DNA of 64,000 nucleotides, from assembly GCF_036014215.1 (NCBI RefSeq), contig NZ_CP107921.1:2303501-2367500 (forward strand). The letters run 5' to 3'. Shown in pieces: positions 4,646 through 32,193 of this stretch (the first letter of the stretch is position 1; each line of letters begins with the position of its first letter). Both the position numbers and the translations under genes were made by a program. Below the pieces are notes generated by a model. It had not been told where the DNA came from, made no database searches, and saw only the letters and a program-made list of their open reading frames with translations. Origin of the DNA: Streptomyces sp. NBC_00440. Its GTDB lineage: Bacteria > Actinomycetota > Actinomycetes > Streptomycetales > Streptomycetaceae.

Positions 4646-5413
4646 TTATCCAGCGACGTATGCGACAGCATCGTGGCTATGGATGCTTTCGAGGTTGCGG
4701 ATGCGCACTGAGTGGCGAAGGCCTCGATCCCGGCACGCAAGGCTGACGTCGCGGGCCATGTCCTCGACGAATACAGGGTGGTCGTACGCCTGCATGGTGA
4801 GGACACGCTCGTCTACGCGCTTGATCAAAGGCACTACGGGCGCCGAAGCGGAAGACGTCAACAACCTCACGGCGCTCTGCACCGGCAGGGGGTACGGGGT
4901 GTCTCCCTGGCCCGTCACGTTGAGCGTAATCCGGCTGCGCTGATTGTGCGCACCGTAGTCGGAGATTGCCTTCGAACATGGACAGAGGCTGGTGACCTCG
5001 CTGGTCACTGCCGTTGCTACTGTCACGTCGCCGTTGTTCCAGCGCCCTTCGATACAGACGTCGTGAACCTGTTTCGACTCACAGCCGCTGGCCGGCGCTA
5101 CGACGGTCGTGCTGATAGGCATGGCCATCGTCACAGTAACCGCGGGCGCATCCAGCAGTTCCGCTCCAGCCTTGAGGACCTGCGGCAACTGCCGGGGGTC
5201 GAATCTCTGAAGGTGGTCGTGCGCGAGAGCGACCATGCGGCTCATGTGCGTACCTCGGCGGTCGTGTTGGAGCCGCACGGTGATCGCGATATCCGCAATG
5301 CCGTCCTGACGGAGGCAGCCATCCTCGAAATACACGGGATACCGAAGGCCACTGATGCCGACCTCGTTGATCTCGATGCCGCGAGAGTCAGTCTCATTCT
5401 GAATGTCGTGCAT
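4646..5413 (-). CDS. folE2: GTP cyclohydrolase FolE2 (type IB)
   Basis: Converts GTP to 7,8-dihydroneopterin triphosphate, the first step to preQ0. At 255 residues it matches the FolE2 (COG1469) family and not the classic FolE. Diagnostic motifs are GTHMSRM near residue 55, CPCSKAISDYGAHNQRS at 144-160 with the catalytic Cys and metal ligands, and the C-terminal SIHSHDA. The ATG at 5413 lies 2 bases past the queD stop; a GTG at 5419 overlapping that stop (GTGA) is an alternative. It is the last gene of the queC-queE-queD-folE2 operon, so it supplies DNA modification and not folate. FolE2 is the metal-promiscuous type used under zinc shortage. Confidence 0.95.
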   Translation of the reverse strand: MHDIQNETDSRGIEINEVGISGLRYPVYFEDGCLRQDGIADIAITVRLQHDRRGTHMSRMVALAHDHLQRFDPRQLPQVLKAGAELLDAPAVTVTMAMPISTTVVAPASGCESKQVHDVCIEGRWNNGDVTVATAVTSEVTSLCPCSKAISDYGAHNQRSRITLNVTGQGDTPYPLPVQSAVRLLTSSASAPVVPLIKRVDERVLTMQAYDHPVFVEDMARDVSLACRDRGLRHSVRIRNLESIHSHDAVAYVAG

Positions 5414-5415
5414 GC

Positions 5416-5772
5416 TCACTCGCCCCGATAGGTGCAACCGGATGTGCACGTCTCGCGGACGGTGAGCGCTGAGAGCGCGGGCAGGATCGGCTGCAGGCGC
5501 TCCCAGATCCAGCGGGCGAGAACCTCGCTAGTCGGGTTCTCTAGGCCCTCGATCTCATTGAGGTAGTAGTGATCCAGTTGAGCTTCGAGTGGCTTGAAGG
5601 CTCGCTTAACGTCACCAAAGTCCATGACCCAACCAGCCTCGGGGTCGACGGGGGCTTCTACGTGAACGATGACCTTGTAAGAGTGGCCATGCAGGCGCGC
5701 ACACTTGTGGCCCTCTGGAACCTTGGGTAGGCGGTGCGCCGCTTCGAACGTGAACTCGCGAAAGATTTCCAT
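5416..5772 (-). CDS. queD: 6-carboxy-5,6,7,8-tetrahydropterin synthase
   Basis: Converts dihydroneopterin triphosphate to 6-carboxytetrahydropterin in the preQ0 pathway. The 118-residue protein has the QueD fold signature: zinc-binding His13 in AAHRLP, then catalytic Cys24 and His28/His30 in [11 protein letters not shown], and the conserved WVMDFGDVK strand. The length is normal. Its start codon overlaps the last base of queE (stop at 5772-5774) and its end abuts folE2, so the genes are translationally coupled. Confidence 0.95.
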
Positions 5773-6407
5773 TACTGAATTCCCAGATACTTGTGCGTCT
5801 GGAGAGAGAGGATCCAGCGCGGGTTCTTCATGCAGTAGTCGACAGTGTCCCGGGTGTTAGCTTCTACGTCGGGTCCGTCCATGGGCTGGAGACGGAAGAA
5901 TTGGAAGTCGAGGTTCTCGAATTGGCCCGGGTCTCCGCCCAACTGCGGATAGACAAGCTTCAACTCGTCGCCGCTTGTGACGACCACGTCAGACCCGATC
6001 TTCGGACTGACACAGAGCCAGTCGATTCCCGGCGGCGGCACGCGGGTGCCGTTCGTCTCCACCGCAACCTCGAAACCCCTGGCGTGCAGAGCTTCGATGG
6101 CTGCCTCGTCAAGCTGCAGAAGCGGCTCACCCCCGGTGCACACCACAAAGCGGTATTCCACGGCAGTTGAAGGCCACGCCTGCTCGACTGCTTGGGCGAG
6201 GTCATCAGGGGACGCGAATCGGCCACCACCTTCGCCGTCGGTTCCAACGAAATCGGTATCGCAGAACTGGCAAATCGCCCGATGCCGATCCTTCTCAAGA
6301 CCTGTCCAGAGATTGCAGCGCGAGAAACGGCAGAAGACAGCGGGTCGGCCCGCATGGCTCCCTTCGCCTTGCAAGGTGTAAAAGATCTCTTTGACCAGAT
6401 AGGTCAT
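5772..6407 (-). CDS. queE: 7-carboxy-7-deazaguanine synthase (radical SAM)
   Basis: A radical SAM enzyme that contracts 6-carboxytetrahydropterin to 7-carboxy-7-deazaguanine. The 4Fe-4S cluster ligands follow the unusual CX14CX2C pattern of some QueE proteins: [19 protein letters not shown] near residues 30-50, in place of the common CX3CX2C. The SAM-binding GGEP motif is present ([11 protein letters not shown]), and FETNG-like VETNGT follows. The 211 residues match the family. The start lies 2 bases past the queC stop; it is the second gene of the operon. Confidence 0.95.
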
Positions 6408-6409
6408 TC

Positions 6410-7117
6410 TCAGACGCCCTGGTACTGCACGGGGTCAGTGGTACCAGCCTCAGCGAACCCCTTTAGGCGGAGCAGGCAGGTCTCGCAACGGCCACAGGCC
6501 CGACCTTGCTCATCCGGGTCATAGCAGCTGGACGTCTGGGAGTAGTCGACACCCAGGCGCAGGCCCTCTCGAACGATGTCGGCCTTGGACATCGCAATGA
6601 GGGGGGAATGGAGCTTGAGCTCCTGAGTTCCCTCAAGGCCAGCCCTGGTCGCAAGGTTCGCCATCTTGGCGTACGCGTCCATGTACTCAGGACGGCAGTC
6701 GGGGTAGCCGCTGTAGTCGACGGCGGTCACGCCGGTGAAGATGTCGCTCGCGCCAACGGTCTCCGCGTAGGCCAGGGCGAACGACAGGAAGATCGTGTTA
6801 CGTGCCGGCACGTAGGTGATGGGCACGCTGCTTCCTGCGTCACTGTTGCTGGCGTCGTCCAGCGAGTCGTGCTTCGGGACGTCGATATCAGCAGTAAGAG
6901 CGGAGCCACCGAAAACTCGCAGGTCGATGTCTGCGATGACGTGGCGGGCTACGCCCTGAGTCTCTGCCACGCGCTTGGCGGCTTCCAGTTCAACACTGTG
7001 CCGCTGGCCGTACCGGAAGCTGAGCGCGTACGGCGTGTAGCCCTGGTCCTTGGCGATGGCCAGAACTGTCGTCGAGTCCAGGCCGCCGCTCAGTAGAACG
7101 ATCGCGGGACGTCCCAT
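6410..7117 (-). CDS. queC: 7-cyano-7-deazaguanine (preQ0) synthase
   Basis: An ATP-dependent ligase that turns 7-carboxy-7-deazaguanine plus ammonia into preQ0. The 235-residue protein has the PP-loop SGGLDSTT at residues 10-17 and a C-terminal zinc site ([18 protein letters not shown]). The ATG at 7117 has a good ribosome site (AGGGAG, 6 bases upstream). It is the first gene of the minus-strand preQ0 operon and diverges from dpdC. No queF (nitrile reductase) is in the island, so preQ0 itself, not preQ1, is the likely end product delivered to DpdA. Confidence 0.96.
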
Positions 7118-7226
7118 GCCTTGCTCCCTAGTTAGCTCTGTGTGTACTGGTGCACCCTAGCGTCAAAACTGACGGGTAGAGTAACCGCAACAAGTTACTA
7201 GTTAAGGCCGTCGGGAGTGGGACTGC
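7118..7226. promoter_or_regulatory. Divergent promoter region with inverted repeats
   Basis: This 109-bp gap separates the queC operon (minus) from the dpdC operon (plus). It contains CGTCA-AAAC-TGACG (7161-7174), AGTAAC-N8-GTTACT (7180-7199), and the direct repeat CTAGTTA at 7128-7134 and 7198-7204. It is noticeably less GC-rich than its surroundings. The dyads are candidate sites for a regulator that sets both operons together. Clear -35/-10 pairs could not be chosen with confidence. Confidence 0.5.
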
Positions 7227-8117
7227 GTGAGGCAACTATCGTTGGTGGTCACTTGCACGGACCGTAAGGCCGCTGTGCCGGAGGCCACGCTCCATGCGAG
7301 ATCACTACCGGTCGGCAGCGTGAAGGACCGCTCCGCAGCGTGGAGAGAGCGCGTTGAGAAGGCCTCGAACACGAAGCTCCTAAGCGAGCTCTACCGGGGC
7401 GATCACTGGACACAGGCCCGTCGGCTAACTGCCGCGGCCGCGAAGGCCAGATTTGAAGCGGAACTGTGGGTGGCGTCGGCCGGCCTCGGCCTCCAGCCAG
7501 TATCGGCGTCGGCACCTGCCTACGCGGCGACCTTCAGTACTCGACACGCAGACTCCGTCACCGCTTCTACGGCTGACAGTGCCCAGTGGTGGGGGCACCT
7601 TCAAGAAGGAACTGGCCGCAAGACCCTAGAGGAACTCGGACGACAGGGCCCGGTTCTCATGGTCCTGTCCGAGGTGTACGCAAATGCCATGAAGGCCGAG
7701 ATCCACGCGCTGGCCAGCGTTGGAGGCGAAGTCCTGCTAGTGGGAGGTGTCGAGGAGATCCCCGGCATCCAGAGAGTCGCCTCTAACGCGGGCCTGCGAC
7801 GCACACTCGGCGGCACTCTGACGAGCCTGAACGTTCGCATGGCCGCCTCATGGCTTGAACACTGTGAGGACGGCAGGCTGACCTCGACTGCTACCAGTGA
7901 CTCGTGGCAGCGGTGGACTTCAGACGTAGCTGAGCCTGAGCGGTACAACCGGACGCCCATATCCGACGAGGACGTCATGGCATTCATCAAGCGTGAGAAC
8001 GCGTCGCATCCTGGCATCTCGCGGTCGCGACTTCTGCGTGCTCTACGTGACGGAAACCAGGCATGCGAGCAGAGTAGGTTCGCCAACTTGTACATCCGAG
8101 CTATGGGGGAACGGTGA
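7227..8117 (+). CDS. dpdC: Probable DpdC, YaaA/DUF6884-like protein
   Basis: A 296-residue protein at the head of the dpd plus-strand operon. Near the N-terminus it has VTCTDRK (residues 8-14), then LWVASAGLGL followed by APAYAATFS, the two hallmark segments of the YaaA/DUF6884-like fold. In the known Dpd system DpdC is the protein needed to turn inserted preQ0 into 2'-deoxy-7-amido-7-deazaguanosine in DNA. Assignment rests on these motifs and on position next to dpdB/dpdA. Start is GTG with GGGAGTGGG upstream. Its stop overlaps the next GTG start (GTGA), so translation is coupled. Confidence 0.72.
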   Translation: MRQLSLVVTCTDRKAAVPEATLHARSLPVGSVKDRSAAWRERVEKASNTKLLSELYRGDHWTQARRLTAAAAKARFEAELWVASAGLGLQPVSASAPAYAATFSTRHADSVTASTADSAQWWGHLQEGTGRKTLEELGRQGPVLMVLSEVYANAMKAEIHALASVGGEVLLVGGVEEIPGIQRVASNAGLRRTLGGTLTSLNVRMAASWLEHCEDGRLTSTATSDSWQRWTSDVAEPERYNRTPISDEDVMAFIKRENASHPGISRSRLLRALRDGNQACEQSRFANLYIRAMGER

Positions 8118-9256
8118 CAGAGAACGTCATCAAGCGCAGAGCCCTGCGCATTGAGCAGAACCCGAATATTCCCCTATACCTGTTTGCCCTGGAAGCGCGA
8201 GAAATCGATCTCGTAGCCGATGTTGCACGGATCTCCCGGGATGAGGCCGGCAAGCTCTTCGGCTATCAACGTCCCGAAAAGAAGCAGCACGTTAAGCAAA
8301 TTCTGGAGTACCTCGACGGTGAAGATGTGCTGTTCCCAAATGGGCTCATCCTCGCCCTGCCCACCACGGTGCGGTTTAAAGGCAGTCGCGGCCCCAATCC
8401 GGGCGACGGACTGGCAACCATCGGAACCCTTGAGATTCCGCTACCGGAGTCGCGGGACGCGCCTCGTCCGGCTCTGATCGTCGATGGTCAGCAGCGAAGC
8501 CGCGCGCTTGCACTCACTCGGCGAACCACCCTTCCGGTCACAGTGGCAGGATTTGTGGCCGAAGATCTTGACATCCAGCGCGATCAGTTCCTGCGCGTCA
8601 ACACGGTGTCTCCGCTTCCGAGCAATTTGGTATCAGAACTCCTCCCAGAAGTGAACACCCAACTTCCGACCAGGCTGTCCGCTCGAAAGCTTCCCGCGAT
8701 CCTCGTTAACGCACTAAACCAGGACAACGACTCACCTTTCAAGGGGCTCGTTAAGCAGGCGTCAACGACCCCCGATAAGAAGTCAGACACTGTCGTCAAA
8801 GACAACAGCCTCATCACTGCGATCACGGAATCATTGTCACCCTCCGGCGTCCTTTTCTCATACAAAAACCTAGCCAACGGAACCACCGACACTGCGAGCA
8901 TTCGGAAGATTCTAATTGTCTACTGGACGGCAGTGAAGGACACCTTCCCTGAAGCTTGGGGACTGCCTCCCGCCAAGAGCCGCCTTATGCATGGTGTCGG
9001 AATCAGGTCGCTGGGCCGCCTCATGGATCGGGTTATGGAGCGAGTCCTGTTTGATGCCGATATCGACTCGCCGGATATTAGAGACAGAGTCATGACTGAA
9101 CTGGCGCTCATTAAGCCGCACTGCCATTGGACCAAGGGGCGATGGCCTGAAATCAACACCCCTTGGAACGAGTTGCAGAACACTCCCCGCCATATCAGTA
9201 TCCTGTCAAACTATCTGATTCGCGTCTATCGCGATTCGAGGATGGGTGCTTCGTGA
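8114..9256 (+). CDS. dpdB: DpdB, DndB/ParB-like DGQQR protein, copy 1
   Basis: A 380-residue protein of the DndB/DGQHR superfamily. The signature VDGQQRSRAL lies at residues 123-132, preceded by a YQRPEKKQHV helix near 51-60 and followed by QFLRVNTVSPLPSNLVSELL. DpdB is an ATP-using partner required together with DpdA for putting preQ0 into DNA. The start is a GTG overlapping the dpdC stop; its own stop overlaps the dpdA start (GTGA). A second gene of the same family follows dpdA, so this cluster has two. Which one partners DpdA, or whether both do, is not shown by the sequence. Confidence 0.87.
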   Translation: MTENVIKRRALRIEQNPNIPLYLFALEAREIDLVADVARISRDEAGKLFGYQRPEKKQHVKQILEYLDGEDVLFPNGLILALPTTVRFKGSRGPNPGDGLATIGTLEIPLPESRDAPRPALIVDGQQRSRALALTRRTTLPVTVAGFVAEDLDIQRDQFLRVNTVSPLPSNLVSELLPEVNTQLPTRLSARKLPAILVNALNQDNDSPFKGLVKQASTTPDKKSDTVVKDNSLITAITESLSPSGVLFSYKNLANGTTDTASIRKILIVYWTAVKDTFPEAWGLPPAKSRLMHGVGIRSLGRLMDRVMERVLFDADIDSPDIRDRVMTELALIKPHCHWTKGRWPEINTPWNELQNTPRHISILSNYLIRVYRDSRMGAS

Positions 9257-10497
9257 AGTTCTACTTCCCAGATAGCCAAGATCAGATCTACCCCAGGTAC
9301 GACTTCATCAATGATGAGTACCCAGACGAGCGAGTCCGCCAGAGGGATGACCTGTACGCCCATCAGGCAGTAAAGCCCGCGCCCTACGATGGGATACTGG
9401 TCAGCAAGGCCATCGTAGACGGATCGGTCAAGGGAGCCGGGAAGTACAGCGCCCCTCAGCGGGACCGTCTCTACCGCGACGGCGTGAAGACCTTTTTCGG
9501 GCTACCCGACCCGATGGAAAGTCTCGGTGACTGCGGAGCCTTCAACTACATCAATGAAGAGTACCCCCCGTACAGAGTTGAGGACGTTCTCCATTACTAC
9601 ACGGAGTGCCGATTCAACTCGGGAATCAGTATCGACCATGTGATCTTCGGTTATCGACCTGATGCCCCTGACAAGGACGTTGATCCGGCGTGGGTAAAGC
9701 GTCGTGAGATTTCGCTCGACTTGGCAGAAAAGTTCATCAAAGCTACCGAGAGTCACAATCGCCTAGTCACTGGCAGGAAGCAGCATCTGGAACCGATTGG
9801 CGCGGCGCAGGGGTGGAGCCCGGCCAGCTACGCGGACAGCGTCGTCCAACTTCAGAAAATGGGCTACAGGCGAATCGCCCTGGGTGGCATGGTTCCACTG
9901 AAGACGCCGGAAATACTGGCTTGCTTGGAAGGGATCTCTGAGGTTCGCAAGAGTGGGGTCGGGTTCCATCTACTCGGAATCACCCGTATCGCCAGCATGG
10001 AACGCTTCGCCAAATATCATGTCACCAGCTTCGACAGTACGTCAGCATTCCGGCAAGCTTTCATGGACGAGCGAAATAACTACCACACCGCCGACCGCTC
10101 ATACCTAGCAATCAGAGTTCCCCAGGTTGACGGGAACCCCACCCTAAAGAAGCTGATCTTGGCGGGCGTGGTGTCGCAGTCGGCAGCCATTAAGGCCGAA
10201 CGGGAATGTCTCAAATTGCTACGCCAGTATGAAGCCGACGAGAACTTTGAAGTGCAGGAGGTCATCGATGCCTTGTACGCCTATCAATCTCTCATCAGTG
10301 ACGCCAAGAAGCTGAAGAAGGTTGATGACTACAGGGACACTCTTGTCGACCGCCCTTGGAATCACTGCCGATGTGAACTCTGCAAGAAACACAAGATCGA
10401 CATGGTCATCTTCCGTGGAACAGAGCGAAATAAGCGCCGCGGGTTCCATAACATGACGGTACTCGAAGCCAAGATGCGCAAGCTTCCACTCACATAA
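9253..10497 (+). CDS. dpdA: DpdA, DNA-guanine transglycosylase (TGT-like)
   Basis: A 414-residue paralogue of tRNA-guanine transglycosylase that exchanges guanine in DNA for preQ0. Visible TGT features: DCGAFNY at 93-99 (counterpart of DSGGFQ), Asp128 in SIDHVIFGY, the RIALGGMVPLKTPEI turn at 207-221 (like the GGL loop), Asp261 in TSFDSTS as probable nucleophile, and a zinc site from Cys372, Cys374, Cys377 and probably His399. The GTG at 9253 is preferred over an ATG at 9163: it gives the family-like start VKFYFPDSQD and overlaps the dpdB stop by four bases. It is the key enzyme of the cluster. Confidence 0.93.
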   Translation: MKFYFPDSQDQIYPRYDFINDEYPDERVRQRDDLYAHQAVKPAPYDGILVSKAIVDGSVKGAGKYSAPQRDRLYRDGVKTFFGLPDPMESLGDCGAFNYINEEYPPYRVEDVLHYYTECRFNSGISIDHVIFGYRPDAPDKDVDPAWVKRREISLDLAEKFIKATESHNRLVTGRKQHLEPIGAAQGWSPASYADSVVQLQKMGYRRIALGGMVPLKTPEILACLEGISEVRKSGVGFHLLGITRIASMERFAKYHVTSFDSTSAFRQAFMDERNNYHTADRSYLAIRVPQVDGNPTLKKLILAGVVSQSAAIKAERECLKLLRQYEADENFEVQEVIDALYAYQSLISDAKKLKKVDDYRDTLVDRPWNHCRCELCKKHKIDMVIFRGTERNKRRGFHNMTVLEAKMRKLPLT

Positions 10498-10545
10498 TCG
10501 TCTAAACCGCGCAAAGCACTCAAAGTAACTTAAACAGGAGATGAT

Positions 10546-11640
10546 GTGGCCGACCGCTACGTACTGAAGGTTCCCGCCCTCAAGGTGCTCCAAGGCGACA
10601 AGGAGATCTACTGCTTCGCTGTCGACGGCAAGAAGTTGGAAGACTTTGCCGCCGTCTCGCGCATCCGCCGCGACAGCCAGAAGAAGCTGCAGGGGTACCA
10701 GCGGCCCGAGGTCCAAAGCCACATCCGCTCGATCCGTCGCTACCTTGAGTCCGAGGGGGCGATGCTTCCCAACGCCGTGGTTCTCGGTTTCGATGATCGC
10801 GTCACGTTCGAACCCGCGGTGCGCGGCGGCAGTGTGAGCTACTCCATCCCCGGCGAGCTGATCATCCCGGTCGACGAATCACTGGCTGATGAAGAGAAGC
10901 CGGCCTGGCTCGTGGACGGTCAGCAGCGCAGCGCGGCCATCAGGGACGCTGACCTTGCAGAGTTCCCCGTCGCAGCAGTGGGCTTCATTGCGTCTCAGGA
11001 AGAGCAGCGGTCGCAGTTCATCTTGGTCAACTCGACCAAGCCACTGCCCAAGGGGCTCGTGTATGAACTCCTGCCGGAGACCACCGCCAAGTTGCCGCGC
11101 TCGTACGCGCGCCGTCAACTCGCTGCGAAGATCATGGTCCTTCTGAATATGGGGGACGGTCCTTTCTGCGGAAGGATCAGCAGCCCCACATCGCCTACCG
11201 GCAACATCAAGGACAACAGCATTCTGAGGATGCTGGAGCACAGCATCTACGAGGGCTCCTTGTACCAGTACCGGAACGCTGAGGACGGTACCGGGGACGA
11301 GGAAGCGATGCTGGCGCACCTTCTGTCCTTCTGGACGGCAGTGGAGAACCTGTTCGAGGATGCGTGGAACAAGCCTCCCAAGGAGTCGAGGTTGACCCAT
11401 GGTGTGGGCATCCAGGCCATGGGCTATGTCATGGACCGACTCACCACAGACGTCCCGTTCGACAAGGTCAACTGGGACAAGATCCGCATCACCCTGCGCC
11501 GACTCGAGAAGCACGTGGCCTGGACTTCCGGCACGTGGAAGTTCTCGGATGGTCAGGAACGTAGCTGGAACGGTCTCCAGAACACGGCCAACGACGTGCG
11601 GCTCCTCAGCACCCACCTGCAGGCCCTAGTCAGCAAGTAG
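10546..11640 (+). CDS. dpdB: DpdB paralogue, DndB/ParB-like DGQQR protein, copy 2
   Basis: A 364-residue protein with the same plan as copy 1. It has GYQRPEVQSHIRSIRRYL near 50-67, VDGQQRSAAI at 123-132 (the motif lies at the same residue number as in copy 1), QFILVNSTKPLPKGLVYELL, and a shared C-terminal HGVGIQAMGYVMDRL. Overall identity by eye is modest, so this is an old paralogue and not a recent duplication. It has its own ribosome site (ACAGGAG before the GTG) after a 48-bp gap from dpdA. It may be a second loading/specificity factor or a regulator as DndB is in phosphorothioation. It ends at the convergent terminator. Confidence 0.83.
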   Translation: MADRYVLKVPALKVLQGDKEIYCFAVDGKKLEDFAAVSRIRRDSQKKLQGYQRPEVQSHIRSIRRYLESEGAMLPNAVVLGFDDRVTFEPAVRGGSVSYSIPGELIIPVDESLADEEKPAWLVDGQQRSAAIRDADLAEFPVAAVGFIASQEEQRSQFILVNSTKPLPKGLVYELLPETTAKLPRSYARRQLAAKIMVLLNMGDGPFCGRISSPTSPTGNIKDNSILRMLEHSIYEGSLYQYRNAEDGTGDEEAMLAHLLSFWTAVENLFEDAWNKPPKESRLTHGVGIQAMGYVMDRLTTDVPFDKVNWDKIRITLRRLEKHVAWTSGTWKFSDGQERSWNGLQNTANDVRLLSTHLQALVSK

Positions 11641-11660
11641 TCAAAGCTCTGCGGCATCAT

Positions 11661-11697: not shown

Positions 11698-11701
11698 TGC
11701 G

Positions 11702-13738
11702 TTAGCGGTTAGCTGCAACGGAGCGAAGACCGTTCACTGCTGCTCGCAGCATGGATGCTGAACCGCTGCCGTCTGCATAGTGGATGTACTTGGTGCGGGT
11801 GTGCTGCGTAATGAAGCCGGTTGCAGCGTGCTTCGCGCAGCGAGTTGCAATGACGACCAGATCAGCGGAACGAGCCTTCTGCCGGAGTTGAGCACTACCG
11901 ACGTGATCACTGGCCATGGCGGCGTCCACTGCGGGGGCAAACTGCTTGATCTCCTCGGCGCAGCGCACGAGCACAGCTTCGTCCAGGGAGTACAGCAGCA
12001 CTCTCATGGGCGGCAGGTCCGAGAGCGACAACTCACGCTCGCTATCAGAGCCGGCCCGGTCCTGCCAAGGGAAGTCGACACCGAGTTCCCTTGAGAGACG
12101 CTTGGCGAACGCCAAGTCAGCTTCGTTGAGCCGACCTTGATGCCGCCAGAGCGGCTCAAGCAGGTCGTATGCGAGCTTGCTGCGAGCCTCCGCGTCAGGG
12201 CATGCGACCAAGAACAGTCGATCAACGAAGTCCAACGCAATTGATGCCCGCTCAGGGGAGACCCATCGGCTGCGATAGGCGCCGATCTCATCGAGAAGTT
12301 CGGCGTAGGTTTCCGCTGACGGGCCAGCTCGGAGTGCGATCTCCGCGAGCGCCTGGAGCACGGCGAGGTCACCTGGACCGAACCGGTCGAAGGCGACCGC
12401 ATTCCGGATGAACGCATGGGCGGTCAGACCCGCCGGAGCTGCATATCCGACAGCATCGATGAACGCCCCAACCGCCCGCCAGGCCTCTTCAGCAGCTTGA
12501 TTCTCCAGCCCGTCCAGGAACCCGGCGAGGGCCGCATCGTGAGCTGCCGGCGGAGACCACGCAGTCCAACTGCGCTCCTCAACAGCCGACTGGCCCTCGC
12601 TGCTGCCCGCGGCTACCGCAGCGAGGAAGGTCGGCCAGGAGTCGATGGTCGCAAACGCTTCCGACGCGTCGCTTCCAGCGATCTGTGGCACAGGCTCTGC
12701 GACGACACGAGGTTCTGCCGCGTCATCGCTTTCGGCCAGGAAGCGTTGGGCGTCCTCCCAGATCAGTGAGGGCAGTTCGCCTATGCGGGCCCCGCTCTGC
12801 ACGGCGTCCACGAGACGACGCAGAGCAGGCAGATCCTCAAGGACGGTGGCCGCCATCAGAAGAACGGTGACGGCCTGCGTGCCGAGCTTGCGCGCATCGG
12901 CATCCAGCAAGGCAGGGACGAACCGCCCCTGCTCTTCGAGCCTCGCCCGTGCCGCTGAGAGATCGCCCACCGCGAGAGGTTCCTCCAACGCCGCGAACAC
13001 GGCGTTCAAGATCGCTTCCTTGACCGGGAGGGGAGGATCCTGCCGGATAGCGTCCGGCAGTTCAGGGAGCTGAAGGATCGCCTCGCTGCGGCCGAGACGA
13101 TCAAGCCGCTTGATCCTCAAGCTTGCAAGGTTGGCTGCGGTAACACCACCAGCCGCTGCCAGATGGTCAAAAACCACGCTCGATGCGGCCTCGGCGCCCG
13201 CGGATAGAGATGCGTCGAACTCTGCAAGGAGCCGGCCGATCGGCTTGGCCACCCGCCACATCCTGGGAGGACGGCGAGCCTCGGTCCTCTGCATCAGCTC
13301 CAGCGCCCCGGCCAGGTTCCGGCGATGCTCGAGAGTGCGTCCCGTCTCCAGACGGAAAGTGGTCCGATCACCAGCAAAGTCGCGGATAGCCTGCTCGATG
13401 GGATCATCGGGGTCCAGCCAGGCGGGCTGGATACCGACCTGCTCGTCATACGCGATGTACGTCGGGCCAGCGAAAGCGCGGATCAACTCAGCCGTCTTTG
13501 CTCGCTCACCAGGCTCCCGGGCAATGACGTACACGACGAATCGATCACGGTCCGTATACACGCGTGGAAGGACCACAGGCGCGTCGTCGCCGCGTCGAAT
13601 AGCCTCGACGAACGGCAGCGTGCGGTCCTTGTAGCGGTAGTCCGGATCGAGGCCCGGCCAGACGCCGTTTCCTGGACCGAAGAACCGGTGCAAGAACCCT
13701 TCGAGGGCTTCTCGCTGCTGATTCTGGGGCTGCGTCAC
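11702..13738 (-). CDS. dpdD: Probable DpdD
   Basis: A 678-residue protein at the end of the long minus-strand operon, assigned as DpdD because all other Dpd members of the arm are accounted for and the size fits. It is mostly helical and Ala/Leu-rich. No catalytic motif, membrane segment or signal peptide is seen. The N-terminus (QQREALEGFLHRFFGPGNG) is followed by a mixed domain to about 190, and the C-terminal 120 residues (LLYSLDEAVLVRCAEEIKQF, ADLVVIATRCAKHAATGFIT) look like a small Rossmann-type sensor fold. GTG at 13738 overlaps the dpdK stop (GTGA) with GGAGGAG upstream; an in-frame GTG at 13753 is less likely. Confidence 0.7.
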   Translation of the reverse strand: MTQPQNQQREALEGFLHRFFGPGNGVWPGLDPDYRYKDRTLPFVEAIRRGDDAPVVLPRVYTDRDRFVVYVIAREPGERAKTAELIRAFAGPTYIAYDEQVGIQPAWLDPDDPIEQAIRDFAGDRTTFRLETGRTLEHRRNLAGALELMQRTEARRPPRMWRVAKPIGRLLAEFDASLSAGAEAASSVVFDHLAAAGGVTAANLASLRIKRLDRLGRSEAILQLPELPDAIRQDPPLPVKEAILNAVFAALEEPLAVGDLSAARARLEEQGRFVPALLDADARKLGTQAVTVLLMAATVLEDLPALRRLVDAVQSGARIGELPSLIWEDAQRFLAESDDAAEPRVVAEPVPQIAGSDASEAFATIDSWPTFLAAVAAGSSEGQSAVEERSWTAWSPPAAHDAALAGFLDGLENQAAEEAWRAVGAFIDAVGYAAPAGLTAHAFIRNAVAFDRFGPGDLAVLQALAEIALRAGPSAETYAELLDEIGAYRSRWVSPERASIALDFVDRLFLVACPDAEARSKLAYDLLEPLWRHQGRLNEADLAFAKRLSRELGVDFPWQDRAGSDSERELSLSDLPPMRVLLYSLDEAVLVRCAEEIKQFAPAVDAAMASDHVGSAQLRQKARSADLVVIATRCAKHAATGFITQHTRTKYIHYADGSGSASMLRAAVNGLRSVAANR

Positions 13739-22533: not shown

Positions 22534-23458
22534 CGGTGGGCTCCAGGATCGTGATGTCGCTAACGGGGCGTGGGCTGGCGGGCCTTTCAGGGTCGTGCAG
22601 GAGAAGAATCTTCCGAGCATCGTCGTCGTGCTCCAGATGAAGCCACTTCTCATCGTGGCCACGCAGGAGAGCAAACGAGAGGGCGGCACCGGCCACACTC
22701 TCGCCGGGACTGGGGATCCCCACCGCGAGCGAGTGTGCGCCGCCAGGCAACACCGGTAGGTGCTCCCGCAGAACTTGTAGTGCCTCAACCGCATTGATTC
22801 GCTGGGCTGGTTGCCACAACTGAAGCACTGTTTGCTTGACGGCCAGGGTGCAGTCCGGGACTAGTGGGCCGCGGCCTTCACCGCGGAAGAGCGGGGCTGC
22901 GGCAAGGCCGAGAGTGGGCGCCCAGTAGCCGAAGCGGAGCCAGCGGGTGGGGTTAGCGAAGATGGGAAGCACTTCGAGCCGCAACACCTTACGGTCCTTG
23001 CTGTCCTTGTAGTCCAGGAGTTTCTCCGCGGCGACGCTGTCGATTGGTTGCTCCATCGGGTCGTGCATGAGGAACCAAGCGAGCGCGCGAGTGAGGTCTC
23101 GGGGGCCTGCCGCATCGTTGTTGGCGCCCAACTCCTTGTTGTAGTCCGCTTCGAGGACTGCGTGACGCAGGATGCGGGAGTATGTGTCGAGATCGTCGCT
23201 GCGGGCAAGAGCCTTGGCTGGGCCGGCCAGCGAGAGTTCCTGCCGGTCGTCATCGACGTGCACCAACCCCAGGACCTGGAGGGAACTGATAGCACAGTCG
23301 AAGGGCGGCTTGGTCGACGTGTCCTCTGAGCGCAAAGAAGGAGGACTGACCAGCGCCCGCGCCTCGTCCAAGGCGATGCTCTTCCCCAAGTAGGCGAGGA
23401 GGCGGACCACAGCCCATGTCTGGGAGGGAATGGCTGCGTCTACGTTCAGGAGAGTCAT
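22526..23458 (-). CDS. dpdG: DpdG
   Basis: A 310-residue protein assigned by order between dpdF and dpdH. The N-terminal 100 residues look like a winged-helix fold (SQTWAVVRLLAYLGKSIALD, then SSLQVLGLVHVDD), and the middle has FGYWAPTLGLAA. No catalytic motif is seen. The ATG overlaps the dpdF stop by one base and the stop overlaps the dpdH start by eight. A DNA-binding or bridging role for the helicase complex is plausible but unproven. Confidence 0.77.
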   Translation of the reverse strand: MTLLNVDAAIPSQTWAVVRLLAYLGKSIALDEARALVSPPSLRSEDTSTKPPFDCAISSLQVLGLVHVDDDRQELSLAGPAKALARSDDLDTYSRILRHAVLEADYNKELGANNDAAGPRDLTRALAWFLMHDPMEQPIDSVAAEKLLDYKDSKDRKVLRLEVLPIFANPTRWLRFGYWAPTLGLAAAPLFRGEGRGPLVPDCTLAVKQTVLQLWQPAQRINAVEALQVLREHLPVLPGGAHSLAVGIPSPGESVAGAALSFALLRGHDEKWLHLEHDDDARKILLLHDPERPASPRPVSDITILEPTDG

Positions 23459-26058
23459 CAGAGTTCCTCCAAGGCACGGCGGATCGACAAGTTCGCCGGG
23501 TGGACATCGACGAGTGGCGTATCTCGGCGCTCGGGGTGGTGCATGGTCCGTGGATGGATCAGGTAGGTCGGTGCATTCCAGGCGAATCGCGTCGCAATCT
23601 CAGGCCCGGGTGACACTGCGTTCGGGTCCGCCATCCAGATAACAGGGCCATGCCAGTCCGACAGGAGAGCACCGTCATCGTCAACGATCACGGTGCGGGT
23701 CCGCGCTGTTGTCTGCAGTTGGCTTCTGAGGTGGGTATCCATGCCCGGCCCCCCGACCACGGCGATCCTGCGACGGACAAGGCTTTCTACCAGACGTGCC
23801 GCCAAGGCCCGGTCGTCGGCGTCTTGCCACCACAGGCTCAGGCACTGATGGTCCCCGAAGTACGGCATCAGGGGGAGATGCCCATGGTTCTCGGATGTGG
23901 GTAGCAGAGGGCGCGGCTCCCCAGCGAGCCGGTAGAAGCCTGCAGGCAGAAGCTTGGCAGTGGCCCTGCAGTGAGGGCATCCACGGCAGGTGATACCTGT
24001 GCGGCGAAAGCCCTCGCCATGCGGGACCCGGTAGTACGACCCCAGCACTTCGCCGATGCATTGATTGCCTCGCAGAGCTACTTTCAGTTCTCGCAGGGCC
24101 GAAGCGCGACCGCGTAGCAGTTTTTGGCGCTCAGTTTCAAAGCGAGCATGGAAGTGCTCGCTGTTTCTTGCGTCGGAGTCGAGGAGTTCCACGTCTGCGT
24201 AGCCATCAGCTGTCGCGTAGAACTGGTCAAGTCGTGCCTTCCAGACGACATCCGACTCACCTTCATCCCTTCCGGGTGGCTGTGGTGGGTGGACGGCCAC
24301 AATCCCTGATCGCACCATGAGGTTGAGGATCCGGATGTTCCATTGCCGGTTCCGTTGAAAGCCCTCGTTCATGTCAGGGGGGTAGGAATCAAGACTGACG
24401 CGGTGACGATCTTGGATCGTAGTCCTGCTGTGGAACATTGCCTCCCACCGCTGCCACGCGCGCGGGGCGCCGATGACCACCTCGTCGCTCATGTAGTTGG
24501 CGATCTCTTCGTCATTGCGCGTGGTGGCCATATACGCGATTGAAGGGCTTCCGTTGCGTCCTGCTCGGCCGACTTCTTGGTAGTAGCGGTCCACCGTCTC
24601 TGGCAGGCATGCGTGCACGATCGTCTTAACGTCGTCGAGGTCGACGCCCAGGCCGAAGGCAGAGGTACCAACCACGATGTCGAAGCGTGTCTCCACGTCG
24701 TCTTCGGCTGTCTTACCGCCCCATCCCTCCAAGGCGTCGCGACGCTCGGCATCGGTGGAGTCACCGGTGACGCTCGCTACGCGGCGAAGCCCGTGGCCGT
24801 GAAGACGGCCCGCCCACTCCTGCGCATGTTCGACCTTGGTCGTGTAGAGGATCATCGGCTTCGGCAAGTACGAGACGGCATCAAGGACTGCGGTCTGCCG
24901 GTCGGTCTCGCTCTCAAAGGCGTCGATGTAGTAGCTCGGCTCGTGGCGAAGTTGGGAAGCCCAGACGATCCTCGCCCGTTGTGGCGAGGCAAACAGTGTG
25001 TCGAGTGTCTCCACCTGTTGCCCAGTGAGTGTCGCGCTCATCGCGACGGTGACTGGTTGCCGGCCTGCCGGGGCCTTGCTGAGCCAGATGCGACGGTGGC
25101 TCGACATGGTCTGGAACTCGGTACGGAAGCTGTTGCCCCACTGCTCGACCAGGTGTGCTTCGTCAATCACGAAGTAGTTGAACAACCCGGCCTCAGCGGC
25201 GTCCTCTAGAGGTCCCTTCAGGCTCCGCACGAGAGCTTCAGGCGAAGTGAACACGAGCCGTTGGCGGCCTGCGGCGATGTCGTCCCGCATCTGTTGTTTG
25301 TCTTCGGGAGACAGGCCGCTGGTGTACGCGTACCGGCGTGTGGGGCTGTGCTGCCCGTACCGTTCAAGGATCTTGAAGGCACGCCGTTCCAGGTCTGCTG
25401 CGAGAACGCTCGTAGGCACGACGACTACCGACACGCCGCTGCTCGTGCTTGCCAGAAGCGCGGGGGCCACTGCAACTGCGGTCTTCCCATGTCCCGTGGG
25501 GAGACAGATGACCGTGGTGCTCCCCGGTTCGGCAAGCGCGATAGCCCTGGCGGCTTGTCGCTGACCGGTTGACACATAGTGACTGTGATCATCACCGAGG
25601 GCGGTTGCGAAGAACGGGTCGGCCGGATACGACTCCAGCCTGCGACGGTGTGGCGAGTCCTCGCCGAGATGGACCTGGCGAAGATCCTCTTGAGCCGCAT
25701 GGCGGGAAACGTCGTCGGGGACGGGCGGATGCCACGGCAGCGCGCTTACCCACAAGTTGGCGCCGCCATCGCGCATCCCAGTTTGGCAGCGCATTTCCTC
25801 CCACTGCTCACGGGTAGGCAGCCGTGGGAGGAGAGGAACCGTGAACCCCGTTGTGTTCTCTCGTGCTTGAGCTTCGAGCAAGATCTGCCGAGTCAGCGAG
25901 GCAACGTCTTTCCACCCGCTGGACTCACTGGCCAGAGCATCACGGAGCCTGCGCAGCGTCCCCTTCGCCTCGGGAAGTTCTGGGAGGTGCTGGAGGTCCC
26001 GGTGCTCCGACAGGTGGTTAAAGAGCGTCTTGGCGCCGGTCCAATTGTCAGTCGCCAC
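23458..26058 (-). CDS. dpdF: DpdF, RecQ-like DEAH helicase
   Basis: An 866-residue superfamily 2 helicase. Q-motif-like TGQRQAAR near 165, Walker A CLPTGHGKTAV at 186-195, DEAH box FVIDEAHLVEQWG at 297-308, and motif VI EVGRAGRNGSPSIAYM match the RecQ branch. A C-terminal cluster CRGCPHC is a likely zinc site, as in RecQ proteins. The N-terminal 150 residues are specific to this family. The start is GTG with a strong AGGAGG eight bases upstream, and overlaps dpdE by 11 bases. Confidence 0.9.
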   Translation of the reverse strand: MATDNWTGAKTLFNHLSEHRDLQHLPELPEAKGTLRRLRDALASESSGWKDVASLTRQILLEAQARENTTGFTVPLLPRLPTREQWEEMRCQTGMRDGGANLWVSALPWHPPVPDDVSRHAAQEDLRQVHLGEDSPHRRRLESYPADPFFATALGDDHSHYVSTGQRQAARAIALAEPGSTTVICLPTGHGKTAVAVAPALLASTSSGVSVVVVPTSVLAADLERRAFKILERYGQHSPTRRYAYTSGLSPEDKQQMRDDIAAGRQRLVFTSPEALVRSLKGPLEDAAEAGLFNYFVIDEAHLVEQWGNSFRTEFQTMSSHRRIWLSKAPAGRQPVTVAMSATLTGQQVETLDTLFASPQRARIVWASQLRHEPSYYIDAFESETDRQTAVLDAVSYLPKPMILYTTKVEHAQEWAGRLHGHGLRRVASVTGDSTDAERRDALEGWGGKTAEDDVETRFDIVVGTSAFGLGVDLDDVKTIVHACLPETVDRYYQEVGRAGRNGSPSIAYMATTRNDEEIANYMSDEVVIGAPRAWQRWEAMFHSRTTIQDRHRVSLDSYPPDMNEGFQRNRQWNIRILNLMVRSGIVAVHPPQPPGRDEGESDVVWKARLDQFYATADGYADVELLDSDARNSEHFHARFETERQKLLRGRASALRELKVALRGNQCIGEVLGSYYRVPHGEGFRRTGITCRGCPHCRATAKLLPAGFYRLAGEPRPLLPTSENHGHLPLMPYFGDHQCLSLWWQDADDRALAARLVESLVRRRIAVVGGPGMDTHLRSQLQTTARTRTVIVDDDGALLSDWHGPVIWMADPNAVSPGPEIATRFAWNAPTYLIHPRTMHHPERRDTPLVDVHPANLSIRRALEEL

Positions 26059-29000
26059 GACGGATCCTCCTGAGCCCCGTCTTCACCAAGCACGTCGCAG
26101 AAACGAGCCGAACATTCGGTTCGCTCAGTCCCTGCACCAGCGCGTCGGTGATGTCGACATCTAGCAGGTAGCTCTCTTCGCCTCCCAAGAGTCGACCAGC
26201 TGCCTGGCGGGCTTCCGCCTGTGCCCTCGTGACCGTGAGGCGTGCCCGTCCCTGTTGCTGGGCCAGATCGCACTTGTCGGCCAGGTTGGTCACTCGCTTG
26301 AGTTCCGCTCGGGCGACTGTTTCAGCACCACGTGCAGATGCTTCGTATCCGGGCTGCCCGTCGAACAGGTCCATCAACTCGTGGATGTTTCCGGAGTTGT
26401 AGTTGTGGTCCGTGGCCCTGTAGCGGGCATCCAGCCACTTCTGGGTGTCTCCGTTGGCCAGGGCCTCGGCAGCTCCGGCCGGCACCCATACCTTCAGCGT
26501 GAACGGTGGGAGGAGTTGCTCAGCCTGGCGCCTCAAAGCTGCTTCCGCGTCGCGGGGCTCTTGCACGAGCGCCAGCGCCAGCGTGAGCGCCGAGGAGATG
26601 TCGGCTTCGACGAGGTAGTCGAAGCCGAAGTAGGGCTCCGGCTCCCCCCGGTGATTCACATCAGCGCGCCAGAAGGCCGTGGCCTGGCCGCGGTCGTCGA
26701 ACCAAACAACGTTGGCGAGTGTGTCGACGAGCGGACTCCCGATACGGAATAGACGTGTGCCGGGGGTTTTGAGCGCCTCAGACCGACTGAACGTGCCCTT
26801 GGCCATCTCCTCCGTGAGGTTCTTGCGGTCATAGAGGTGAGGGGAGATGAGCGTGCGCGACTTTAGGTCGAAGACCTCGCACATCACGCCATTGATCTTG
26901 CGCTCGGTGTGGCGGAGTTTGATCCCGTCCGAGCCGTCTCGTCCGGTGTATCCGAGCATGTCTTTACGGGCGGCGCCCCAGCTGGCCTCGAACGTCGCCA
27001 GCCGCTCGGCGAAGTCGATGTCGTGAGGGGATGTGTCGAAGATCGACTCAAGGGTGTCCATGCTGTCGATCTCACGGCGGGCTTTGGCGAGTTTCTCGTG
27101 AACAGTCTCGGCGAAACCGGGCAAGCCTTCCGGCCCATGCTCGAGCGCCTCCGCCCAGACATCAGCGAGACCTTCCGCGATGGCATCCTGGAGCGTGGAC
27201 ACCGACCCGTCGAAGATGTGGTACCCATCGGTGAGCAGGGACAGCCACGCTTCGGTGTGTGCTTCGATGTCCGTGAGCACGAACTGGCGTGGTGCCTGGC
27301 GCTGCCGGTGGGACTCGACGTAGCGGTCGGTGCGGCCGAGGCGCTGCTCAAGTTGGTTGGGTGACCACGGCAACCGCACGTGGATTACGGTCTGGGCGGC
27401 CTGGAGATTCAGTCCGTCCTCTGCAGTGTCGTCCGCGATGAGAACGGCAGCCTTTTCGCTGGGCTTCCGCCATGCAGCAGTGGCCAACTCAGACGCGTGA
27501 GGGCCCGCGCTGCGGGTGTGCTCAAAGAAGCCGACCTCGGAGAAGCGTGCGCGCAGGCGTGTGGCGAGTGCCGAAGCGAGTGAGCCTGGGCCACAGAAGA
27601 CGATGATGTGTCCTCCCTTACGCAGCGCAGGGAGAAGGGCGTTGATCAGAGCGTCGACTTCAGAAGCGCGATCCTCGTCCGCGATCTCTGATTCGAGACT
27701 CGCCAGGTTCTTTGCCTCGTGGGGCGCCACTGGCACGTTGGAGACGTGGTTCCGCTCGCGGGCACTCAGGCCGGCACGCTCAGCGGCGCCTTCGTCACCG
27801 CGGACCCGCCATCGAAGGGCGTCGAGATAGTCAGCAGACGCGCCACCGAGACGGGACGCGAGCACGGCCAGGGCAAGCGCGTAGTCGTTGCGCTTACTCT
27901 CAAGCCCCTCATCGAGGAGATGGCCCCACAGTTGAGTCTGCCACTCCAGGAGGCTGTCCGCGGCCGGGGAGTATGACTCGGCCGTCAGCTTTGCCGGCTC
28001 GGCACGACCGCGCACCTCGTAAGGGACGGCCGCCGAGTCGTCGTTTTGGCGCAGTACGTTCGACCTGCGGTGCCTGATCACGCGGCGGTGCAGTCGGTAC
28101 GTCTCACTGATGTGCGCCCGAAGCGCGGTGACGCGCGCCGAGAGCTCCGGCATCCCCGTCTCATCGAGGAGGCTTCCCTCCGCATCGAGGAGGTCGAGCA
28201 CCTGGCCCGCCAGGTGCTCGAAGCGGGTGTCTTCCGGGGGCAACAGCGCCTTGGTGATGTCGATCGTGGACGGCAGCAGTGGGTGGAAGTCTGCGTCCAG
28301 GCTGAGGACGTGGTCGGCCAACTCGGCCCGGTGGCTGTACCGCTGCTCGAACGCCTCCCGCTCGCTCCACTTGTACACGTCGGGATCAAGCAGATGCAGG
28401 AGGCCCAGGTGCGTGGTGTGGCTGGAAGTGACCGGCGTGGCGGACAGCAGCAAGAGCTTCGACGCTGAGTGCGCGAGATCGCGCAGTGCCCGATATGTGG
28501 GGTCCGTGTCGTCACGGTCTTGCACCAGTAGATGAGCTTCATCGACCACGACAAGAGCACTCTCTTGGTACTGCTCCCACTTCTCGGGGGATTCGTGCGA
28601 GGTGATCCGTACGCGCCTCGGGAAGTCATCGGTGAAGAACTTCGTGCGCAGCTCGGTTCCCCACTGTCGGCGCAGCGAGTCAGGGGTGAGGATGACCACG
28701 CGCGCCTGCGGATCGTCGATCAAGGTCTGCAGAATCACGTACCCGGCCTCGATGGTCTTGCCGAGTCCGACTTCGTCTGCGAGGAGATACCGCTGGACAG
28801 GGTCGGACAGCACGGTCAGCGCGGCGCGAACCTGGTGAGGATAGGTCTCGACAGCGGCCGCCAGGAGGGCCGGGGTGCTGGCGCTGGCTGCGCGCTGGGT
28901 GACCAGGTTGTGCAGCATTGGGATGCGCGCGTTGTAGAGGTGTCCGGACTCATTGCCTCCAAACACCAGGACCTGGAGAGGGTCGCGTACCGGCCTGTTC

Positions 29001-29326
29001 CACCGCACGCGGAGTTCGGACTCGGGTAGCGGCATGTCGAAGTCGGTGTTGGGAAACCGGATGTAGTACTGGCCGCCTGCGTGGTCCCTCACCCGCCCGG
29101 CCAGCCACTCTCCGGTGCTGGGGTTGCGCCGGAATACGCGGGTCTCCGGCTTGAGTCGCACGCGCTCGCAAGCGACTACCGGGACGGTCTGTGACTCGAT
29201 CTCGGGCTCGGCCGTGGACTCGAAGAAGTCCACGCGCAGCGAGCCGCCGGTTACCGCGCCGACCCGTCCTATTCCAGGAGCCCCCCGGAATGCAACGAGG
29301 TGTCCGACTGCGAAGCCCGAAGACAT
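26048..29326 (-). CDS. dpdE: DpdE, SNF2-type helicase
   Basis: A 1092-residue SNF2/RapA-like ATPase, first gene of the eight-gene dpdE-F-G-H-I-J-K-D operon. The first 130 residues contain two small beta-barrel (Tudor-like) repeats with FRRNPSTGEWLAGRV. Then come Walker A LLADEVGLGKT (181-191), PDSLRRQW (motif Ia), DEAH box VVVDEAHLL (260-268), LLLLSATPV (292-299) and motif VI QRLGRTDRY. The ATG at 29326 has GAGAAGAAGG directly upstream. SNF2-like partners are common in restriction systems that scan DNA. No nuclease motif is visible in this protein. Confidence 0.9.
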   Translation of the reverse strand: MSSGFAVGHLVAFRGAPGIGRVGAVTGGSLRVDFFESTAEPEIESQTVPVVACERVRLKPETRVFRRNPSTGEWLAGRVRDHAGGQYYIRFPNTDFDMPLPESELRVRWNRPVRDPLQVLVFGGNESGHLYNARIPMLHNLVTQRAASASTPALLAAAVETYPHQVRAALTVLSDPVQRYLLADEVGLGKTIEAGYVILQTLIDDPQARVVILTPDSLRRQWGTELRTKFFTDDFPRRVRITSHESPEKWEQYQESALVVVDEAHLLVQDRDDTDPTYRALRDLAHSASKLLLLSATPVTSSHTTHLGLLHLLDPDVYKWSEREAFEQRYSHRAELADHVLSLDADFHPLLPSTIDITKALLPPEDTRFEHLAGQVLDLLDAEGSLLDETGMPELSARVTALRAHISETYRLHRRVIRHRRSNVLRQNDDSAAVPYEVRGRAEPAKLTAESYSPAADSLLEWQTQLWGHLLDEGLESKRNDYALALAVLASRLGGASADYLDALRWRVRGDEGAAERAGLSARERNHVSNVPVAPHEAKNLASLESEIADEDRASEVDALINALLPALRKGGHIIVFCGPGSLASALATRLRARFSEVGFFEHTRSAGPHASELATAAWRKPSEKAAVLIADDTAEDGLNLQAAQTVIHVRLPWSPNQLEQRLGRTDRYVESHRQRQAPRQFVLTDIEAHTEAWLSLLTDGYHIFDGSVSTLQDAIAEGLADVWAEALEHGPEGLPGFAETVHEKLAKARREIDSMDTLESIFDTSPHDIDFAERLATFEASWGAARKDMLGYTGRDGSDGIKLRHTERKINGVMCEVFDLKSRTLISPHLYDRKNLTEEMAKGTFSRSEALKTPGTRLFRIGSPLVDTLANVVWFDDRGQATAFWRADVNHRGEPEPYFGFDYLVEADISSALTLALALVQEPRDAEAALRRQAEQLLPPFTLKVWVPAGAAEALANGDTQKWLDARYRATDHNYNSGNIHELMDLFDGQPGYEASARGAETVARAELKRVTNLADKCDLAQQQGRARLTVTRAQAEARQAAGRLLGGEESYLLDVDITDALVQGLSEPNVRLVSATCLVKTGLRRIRRGD

Positions 29327-29367
29327 CCTTCTTCTCGCCCCCCACCTGCTCGTTTACTAACAGGGCT

Positions 29368-29400
29368 GAGCCTATGCGCAGGCTCTGACAACAAGGTCAA
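29368..29400 (-). promoter_or_regulatory. Possible promoter/operator of the dpdE operon
   Basis: On the minus strand TTGACC (29395-29400) is followed after 18 bases by CATAGG (29371-29376), a weak sigma-70-like pair. A perfect inverted repeat GAGCCT-ATGCGC-AGGCTC (29368-29385) covers the -10 position and could be an operator. The surrounding 100 bases are clearly more AT-rich than the genes. Confidence 0.4.
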
Positions 29401-29529
29401 CGGATAAGTATAGAAATTCGCATGCATATTCGAAATGGAGTGAGGGGGGAGGCGTCTTCCGGGTGCCCCTCGCGTGACATATAGGGCCAATGCCAGGCAA
29501 ATGAAGCGTGCTTGATCTCGTCTGAAGTC

Positions 29530-29787
29530 CTAGGCGGCGATCGAAGACGGCCGAAAGAACACCTTCGAGAGGTCTGGGCGAGCCAGGTACAGAAGGTCGT
29601 CAGATTCCGGCGGCCGCTCCAGCCGCTCGCCGCAGCGAGAGAGTGAGAGCCAGATGAACTGCAGCGATTCATCCGTCTTGCCGCGGTCCGTCTGTTCCAG
29701 GATGCCGACCCAGTGGCCCGCGCGGTCTGTGTGCACCCTCGGCGTGGGAGCGATTCCAGGCCAGAGTTCTGAGGGCGGGACACACAC
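29530..29787 (-). CDS. Small hypothetical protein, 85 aa
   Basis: An 85-residue frame starting with GTG at 29787 (VCVPPSELWPGIAPTPRV) and ending FFRPSSIAA. It contains Trp, charged residues and a C-terminal DLSKVFF that look like protein, not random high-GC reading. There is no recognised domain, membrane segment or strong ribosome site. It diverges from the VUT transporter gene. Weakly supported. Confidence 0.35.
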   Translation of the reverse strand: MCVPPSELWPGIAPTPRVHTDRAGHWVGILEQTDRGKTDESLQFIWLSLSRCGERLERPPESDDLLYLARPDLSKVFFRPSSIAA

Positions 29788-29811
29788 CTGATGTCAGTGG
29801 CGTGGGTTGTA

Positions 29812-29879
29812 CTGTCTGGGCGCCTACCCCGCCGTCCGCTCACGGAGGGATTTGGCGCAACTCGTGCTTCACCAGACAG
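29812..29879 (+). promoter_or_regulatory. Structured 5' leader of the VUT transporter gene (candidate riboswitch)
   Basis: Outer stem CTGTCTGG (29812-29819) pairs perfectly with CCAGACAG (29872-29879). Inside it GCGCC (29820-29824) pairs with GGCGC (29854-29858), and TCCG-CTCA-CGGA (29835-29846) makes a tetraloop hairpin. The outer stem ends directly before the purine-rich ribosome site GAGAAG and the GTG at 29890. A nested multi-stem leader placed so is typical of translation-controlling RNA elements. I do not recognise it as a known preQ1 class; the ligand is inferred only from the downstream gene. Confidence 0.5.
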
Positions 29880-29889
29880 AGAGAAGATC

Positions 29890-30429
29890 GTGAACGTCCC
29901 CGCTCCTGCCGGTATCGCGACGCTGGTCGCCTACGTCGCGACCATTCCCGCGGCCAATCTTGCTGTTACACACTTCGGAGCCGTCCCAGTGGGCTTCGGC
30001 TACGCGGCCCCGGCCGGGGTCTACATGGTCGGGCTAGCCCTCGTCCTCCGTGACCTTGCACGGGAGGCGGCCGGCCGCAGGGCGGTCCTCGCGGCGATAG
30101 CCATCGGCACCGTCTTGTCGTACTTCCTTGCTGACCCCGCGCTCGCGATGGCGTCAGCCGCGGCCTTCGTGGTCGCCGAAAGCATGGACTTCGCCGTCTA
30201 TGAGCCTCTGCGGGAACGCGGCCTGCTGATCGCAATGCTCGCCTCAAACGCGGTCGGCTTGCTCTCGGACAGCTTGCTGTTCCTCAAGCTCGCATTCGAC
30301 TCCTTCGAGTACCTGCCGGGACAGATCCTCGGCAAGGCGTGGATGACCCTCGCAGCGGTAGCAGCCCTGACACTTCTCCGTCGCCGAAAGCGCGCTACGG
30401 CCGGGCTTCCGGAAGCTGGGCGTCGCTGA
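29890..30429 (+). CDS. VUT/YhhQ-family transporter, probable 7-deazaguanine precursor importer
   Basis: A 179-residue integral membrane protein with about five or six hydrophobic helices (IATLVAYVATIPAANLAVTH; GVYMVGLALVLRDLAREAAG; AVLAAIAIGTVLSYFLA; ILASNAVGLLSDSLLFLKLA-like segments). It resembles the VUT/DUF165 family that includes the queuosine-precursor transporter YhhQ. The GTG start at 29890 gives VNVPAPAGIATL with GAGAAG upstream; an open frame upstream to 29791 is judged leader. Lying beside dpdE and in an island that makes preQ0, it probably salvages 7-deazaguanines for DNA modification. Substrate is inferred. Confidence 0.8.
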   Translation: MNVPAPAGIATLVAYVATIPAANLAVTHFGAVPVGFGYAAPAGVYMVGLALVLRDLAREAAGRRAVLAAIAIGTVLSYFLADPALAMASAAAFVVAESMDFAVYEPLRERGLLIAMLASNAVGLLSDSLLFLKLAFDSFEYLPGQILGKAWMTLAAVAALTLLRRRKRATAGLPEAGRR

Positions 30430-32136: not shown

Positions 32137-32193
32137 GCTGAGGCGCCTACGGTGGGGAGGTCCCATCGTGTTCCCGAAACCAGGAGTCGCCGG

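Follow-up and report, generated by a model that had tools for sequence, protein, structure and literature searches.

Does the genomic DNA of Streptomyces sp. NBC_00440 carry a 7-deazaguanine mark of its own, and does the same strain encode proteins that act on DNA lacking this mark? The question is raised by a group of genes in a 64,000-nucleotide stretch of contig NZ_CP107921.1 (positions 2,303,501 to 2,367,500 of assembly GCF_036014215.1; hereafter, the window), which an initial annotation, made from the letters alone, had read as a complete Dpd (DNA 7-deazaguanine) system. According to our analysis, the window very probably encodes a complete Dpd modification-restriction system, located on a 37-kb island at the 3' end of a tRNA-Met gene, in which 2'-deoxy-preQ0 (dPreQ0) and 2'-deoxy-7-amido-7-deazaguanosine (dADG) would serve as the self mark, and a restriction arm would be directed against unmarked DNA. 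This reading draws on the observed gene content, conserved residues and motifs, island ends and synteny, and all but one of the Dpd genes of the region 4646-30429 were matched by profiles.

The supply of preQ0 may be provided by four genes of the minus strand, encoding the GTP cyclohydrolase FolE2 (4646-5449; Pfam GCHY-1, 218 bits), QueD (5416-5772; Pfam PTPS, 135 bits), QueE (5772-6407) and QueC (6410-7117; Pfam QueC, 250 bits). QueE is of the Cx14CxxC type, is assigned to the radical-SAM proteins by Pfam and scores 339.6 bits with TIGR04508 (cut-off 240), and the proposal that the island has its own preQ0 genes is thus confirmed by Pfam and NCBIfam. These genes are followed on the plus strand by dpdC (7227-8117), the first copy of dpdB (8114-9256; PADLOC 487 bits), the DNA-guanine transglycosylase gene dpdA (9253-10497; PADLOC 592 bits, NF041059 601 bits with a cut-off of 200) and the second copy of dpdB (10546-11640; PADLOC 489 bits). 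DpdC, which had been named only as probable, scores 404 bits in PADLOC and has no NCBIfam match at E<=0.01. The open reading frame of dpdA was listed from a TTG codon at 9163, and the profile alignment begins at residue 31, corresponding to 9253. The DpdB copies, encoded on both sides of dpdA, each contain the DGQQR motif and share 37% identity; the earlier gene list, all members of which were found in long open reading frames and in the order given, had omitted the second one. FolE2, QueD, QueE and QueC would make preQ0 from GTP, DpdA, together with one or both DpdB proteins, would exchange some DNA guanines for it, and DpdC would hydrate the nitrile to the amide, giving DNA with both dPreQ0 and dADG.

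The restriction arm occupies the minus strand immediately after the cassette and encodes DpdD (11702-13753; PADLOC 752 bits), the PLD-like DpdK (13735-14253; PADLOC 192 bits, NF041068 183 bits), the helicase DpdJ with GSGKT and DEVH boxes (14250-18752; PADLOC 1775 bits), DpdI (18749-19486), the AAA ATPase DpdH with the Walker A motif GESGSGKS and an in-frame ATG (19432-22533; PADLOC 1242 bits, NF041065 1157 bits), DpdG (22526-23458; NF041064), the helicase DpdF (23458-26058; PADLOC 1037 bits) and the SNF2-type helicase DpdE (26048-29326; PADLOC 1323 bits). The whole dpdE-F-G-H-I-J-K-D arm of the initial annotation is therefore recovered, with D, E, F, G, H, J and K matched by profiles and I placed by position, and its products, the helicases E, F and J, the ATPase H, the PLD-like K and the proteins G, I and D, would act on DNA without the mark. 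In the place of dpdI, nine other recovered loci with the J-I junction in view encode an alignable protein between J and H. The plus-strand gene 29791-30429 probably encodes a YhhQ-like preQ0 transporter: it is above the cut-off of Pfam Vut_1 (40.6 vs 27.2 bits) but below that of the NCBIfam queuosine-precursor-transporter family TIGR00697 (34.6 vs 50.95 bits), and the transporter function assigned earlier is kept only as probable. Seven of the 20 related loci have a homologue to the left of the cassette, six of these next to folE2 or to the position it would occupy.

The island was correctly described as tRNA-integrated and bounded by attachment (att) sites. A 29-bp exact direct repeat is found at 47-75 and 37144-37172, the right copy overlapping the 3' end of the tRNA-Met(CAT) gene (37148-37222, minus strand; ARAGORN), which is the integration site; the interval 4646-30429 proposed at first encloses all the named genes, but the island itself is wider, spanning approximately 47-37172. 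Its G+C content is 0.636, compared with 0.712 in the left flank and 0.696 in the right one. In seven relatives whose match covers the whole right-flank query (L013-L019), homology to this flank starts exactly at the tRNA end in five, and with a shift of +4 bases in L016 and +31 bases in L015. The site in L013 is uninterrupted, since the tRNA end continues straight into DNA that is 83% identical to the flank left of the left repeat (280 columns, including a 25-base core). Of 11 relative loci compared, L013 was the only one with such a site; L017 gave only a weak 62-column match, and the other nine gave none beyond the core within the stretch compared. Elsewhere, several relatives have stretches of 43-51 bp that copy the tRNA-Met 3' end in part; these may stem from other elements that use the same site or belong to further tRNA genes. 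Towards its right end (31222-36542), the island encodes a DUF4145 protein, a GNAT protein, a ParB-like protein and a fragment of a phage major capsid protein.

Might the preQ0 genes and the gene resembling tRNA-guanine transglycosylase (TGT) be there not for DNA but for tRNA queuosine or for a 7-deazapurine natural product? The genome contains two more strong QueC matches, at contig positions 2170445 (199 bits) and 7929135 (146 bits), besides two weak ones barely above the cut-off (24 and 23 bits), and the match at 7929135 has FolE-I, QueD-like and QueE-like matches in its neighbourhood, which makes 7-deazapurine products plausible in this strain. However, Pfam TGT (PF01702) has no match in the whole genome at E<=0.001, while 14 of 14 control genomes were positive, the DNA-type model NF041059 gives DpdA its 601 bits, and queD, queE and queC adjoin dpdC-dpdB-dpdA-dpdB in 20/20 loci, so that this explanation appears very unlikely. 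A tRNA-TGT identity of DpdA, one of the outcomes named at the outset as fatal to the Dpd assignment, was ruled out by the same NF041059 and PF01702 results and by a search among solved structures, in which the sole solved relative at E<=0.01 was the DNA-guanine transglycosylase 7ui4 (396 bits, residues 1-408). DpdA and 7ui4 have in common the aspartates of GDCGAF (D93) and FDSTS (D261) and a CxCx2C...H site, which we take from TGT enzymology to be the catalytic residues and the zinc ligands, respectively. Judged by its sequence, DpdA is a DNA-type transglycosylase. As to the other QueC genes, the one at 7929135 is also near a class-III aminotransferase and may belong to a 7-deazapurine natural product cluster, a possible second source of preQ0, and the one at 2170445, some 132 kb to the left of the window, adjoins a glycosyltransferase and a methyltransferase.

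Another possibility is that the system persists only in a decayed or silent state, the island being a relic with an inactive restriction arm. The island encodes a transposase (706-1950, plus strand; Pfam DDE_3), a probable second one (2022-3056, plus strand; helix-turn-helix domains and a weak DDE_3 match below the cut-off) and the capsid fragment (36159-36542), with no detectable integrase, which speaks for a relic. Against this, the Dpd proteins align with their best profiles over nearly their full length, the Walker A and DExH boxes are intact in DpdE, DpdF and DpdJ, as is Walker A in DpdH, and DpdD, DpdK, DpdJ and DpdI are 88, 93, 92 and 91% identical, respectively, to their Streptomyces bicolor counterparts; decay thus seems improbable, though less so than a role outside DNA. 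The reading as a complete and working modification-restriction system has its own weak points. The chemistry of DNA modification and the restriction activity are ascribed to these proteins from what is known of their family. The HxK-D pattern is absent from DpdK of the window, where HEK...GSMN is kept, as in nine of nine aligned relatives, which makes DpdK an uncertain candidate for the DNA-cutting subunit. DpdG is only narrowly above its cut-off (92 vs 80 bits), and DpdI, named by position and synteny, has no profile match in Pfam, PADLOC or NCBIfam, which leaves the profile check proposed with the initial annotation positive for DpdA-H, J and K (PADLOC or NCBIfam) and negative for DpdI. No tyrosine or serine recombinase was found in the island (PF00589 and PF00239 at E<=0.001), making its current mobility doubtful. 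As for DpdI, an AlphaFold model built from 16 sequences (the window protein and 15 of 37 homologues) is all helical with a mean predicted local distance difference test (pLDDT) score of 80.4, and no function was assigned because nothing in the PDB matches this predicted fold at E<=0.001; in a PADLOC scan of the 16 sequences at E<=10 no Dpd family was found, the two matches obtained being at chance level and of one member each.

A complete Dpd system is by far the most probable reading. The search for DpdA in contigs representing one genome per species recovered 20 loci, all actinobacterial (16 Streptomyces, two Saccharothrix, one Actinocrinis and one Microbispora), the five nearest being from Streptomyces. 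QueD, QueE, QueC, DpdC, DpdB1, DpdA and DpdB2 are found together in all 20, a count that describes this lineage, because the search recovers close relatives only, and FolE2 in 19, with the exception of Microbispora. The doubling of dpdB in every locus raises the question of whether two DpdB proteins cooperate with one DpdA. DpdH was above the cut-off in 19/19 tested genomes of these loci (the L037 genome was excluded), and DpdA in 18 of 295 drawn Streptomyces genomes, including that of the window. No close mobile source was apparent among plasmids and phages, since the DpdA matches in 25 plasmid records and one phage record are all below 60% identity; the latter, the only one among 50,697 phage records at E<=1e-5, shares 36% identity.

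The relationship between the cassette and the arm was compared across strains using seven loci extended to 30-33 kb, with DNA alignment pieces shorter than 300 columns dropped and protein identities taken from 11 pairs selected out of the 28 that eight islands allow. The cassette of Streptomyces olindensis (L048) is 93% identical to that of Streptomyces acidipaludis (L043) over 8.4 kb of DNA and 92% identical to that of Streptomyces musisoli (L042) over 8.1 kb. The arms behind them differ: that of L048 has the order E-F-G-H-I-J-K-D on the plus strand, that of L043 is inverted, and that of L042 is far diverged, DpdI and DpdD not having been identified in it. In pairs with different arms, close homology is lost no further than 50 bases from the stop codon of dpdB2, beyond which a 0.57-kb patch of 79% identity (L048/L042) is found in the gap before dpdE, together with patches of 64-71% identity between some arm types. 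Protein identities change accordingly, from 90-98% in the cassette to 30-51% in the arm for L048/L043, and from 82-98% to 29-36% (six genes found in both) for L048/L042. It is not simply that arms evolve faster, since in the control pair L041/L048, which has the same arm type, arms (77-94%) are as alike as cassettes (76-96%). Furthermore, L043 has a cassette closer to those of L041 and L048 (74-98%) than to that of L046 (57-84%), but an arm closer to that of L046 (71-83%) than to those of L041 and L048 (29-51%). The relationships of cassette and arm are in conflict, i.e. they are discordant and not merely variable. Within the pair L043/L046 itself, the arms cannot be called closer than the cassettes, as the two ranges overlap.

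Arm types could be counted in 18 of the 20 loci, those outside the extended set being typed from their first arm genes only: the forward arm is found in four (L039, L041, L044 and L048), the inverted arm in nine (L034-L038, L043, L046, L052 and L053), the diverged arm in four, where it lies to the right of the cassette (L042, L045, L047 and L049), and in L051 the E-F genes are on the other side. The two loci excluded were L040 of Saccharothrix, where an arm could not be recognised up to 10 kb from dpdA and DpdH is encoded elsewhere in the genome, and L050, which is cut off by the contig end about 3 kb beyond dpdA. The window has an inverted arm whose sequence is nevertheless closer to the forward type, with a DpdJ 59% identical to that of L048 and 49% to that of L043.

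Phosphorothioate systems, with their interchangeable restriction modules, offer a parallel to these observations. We lean towards the view that Dpd is a two-module machine, in which a constant marking cassette (the preQ0 genes and dpdC-dpdB1-dpdA-dpdB2) is combined with exchangeable, diverged or inverted arms, and a single mark would license any of them. Their sequence relationships suggest that an exchangeable restriction arm may read only the base mark. Among the papers listed in literature searches, none describes arm exchange in its title or abstract opening, though this may already be in print. Strongly diverged or inverted arms on cassettes of 92-93% identity seem to be a new point of comparison, and the three arm types that occur naturally with an almost unchanged cassette form a set with which the recognition of unmarked DNA by Dpd restriction might be studied.

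How does this island compare with the systems already named? Phage DpdA systems, to our knowledge, are without the dpdD-K arm. They resemble the system described here in having a DNA-guanine transglycosylase and, in some phages, preQ0 genes of their own (PMC6884629), but differ in that the modification protects the phage's own DNA. The island of Salmonella enterica serovar Montevideo, for which the description in parts of PMC11888242 and PMC12707154 was used, is closer, containing dpdA-C and dpdD-K and being associated with a tRNA gene (leuX), while the present island has preQ0 genes and a second dpdB in its cassette and lies at tRNA-Met. The eight associated genes are reported to have lowered transformation after transfer to a naive host (PMC12707154), and such bases, dPreQ0 and dADG, are stated to have been demonstrated in the DNA of Salmonella Montevideo and Kineococcus radiotolerans (PMC11888242).

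The closest likeness is to the Actinomycetota islands surveyed in PMC11888242. Of the 2,335 unique dpd windows counted there, 333 come from Actinomycetota, and Streptomyces is one of the leading genera. About 27% of islands contain preQ0 genes and about 9% contain YhhQ, extra copies are commonest for dpdB, and dpdA-C show strong synteny, with dpdD-K present to a varying extent. The novelty implied for the arrangement at first is not supported, as it is normal in this lineage (20/20 loci) and, because of that survey, the island belongs to an already known type: the Actinomycetota islands likewise have complete operons for synthesis and restriction, preQ0 and YhhQ neighbours and extra dpdB, and no essential difference was seen. 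In the passages of the survey that were consulted, diverged or inverted arms on near-identical cassettes do not appear, and the terms 'swap' and 'recombin' are absent from the main text. To this known type the present locus adds a clean and complete actinobacterial Dpd island with mapped ends.

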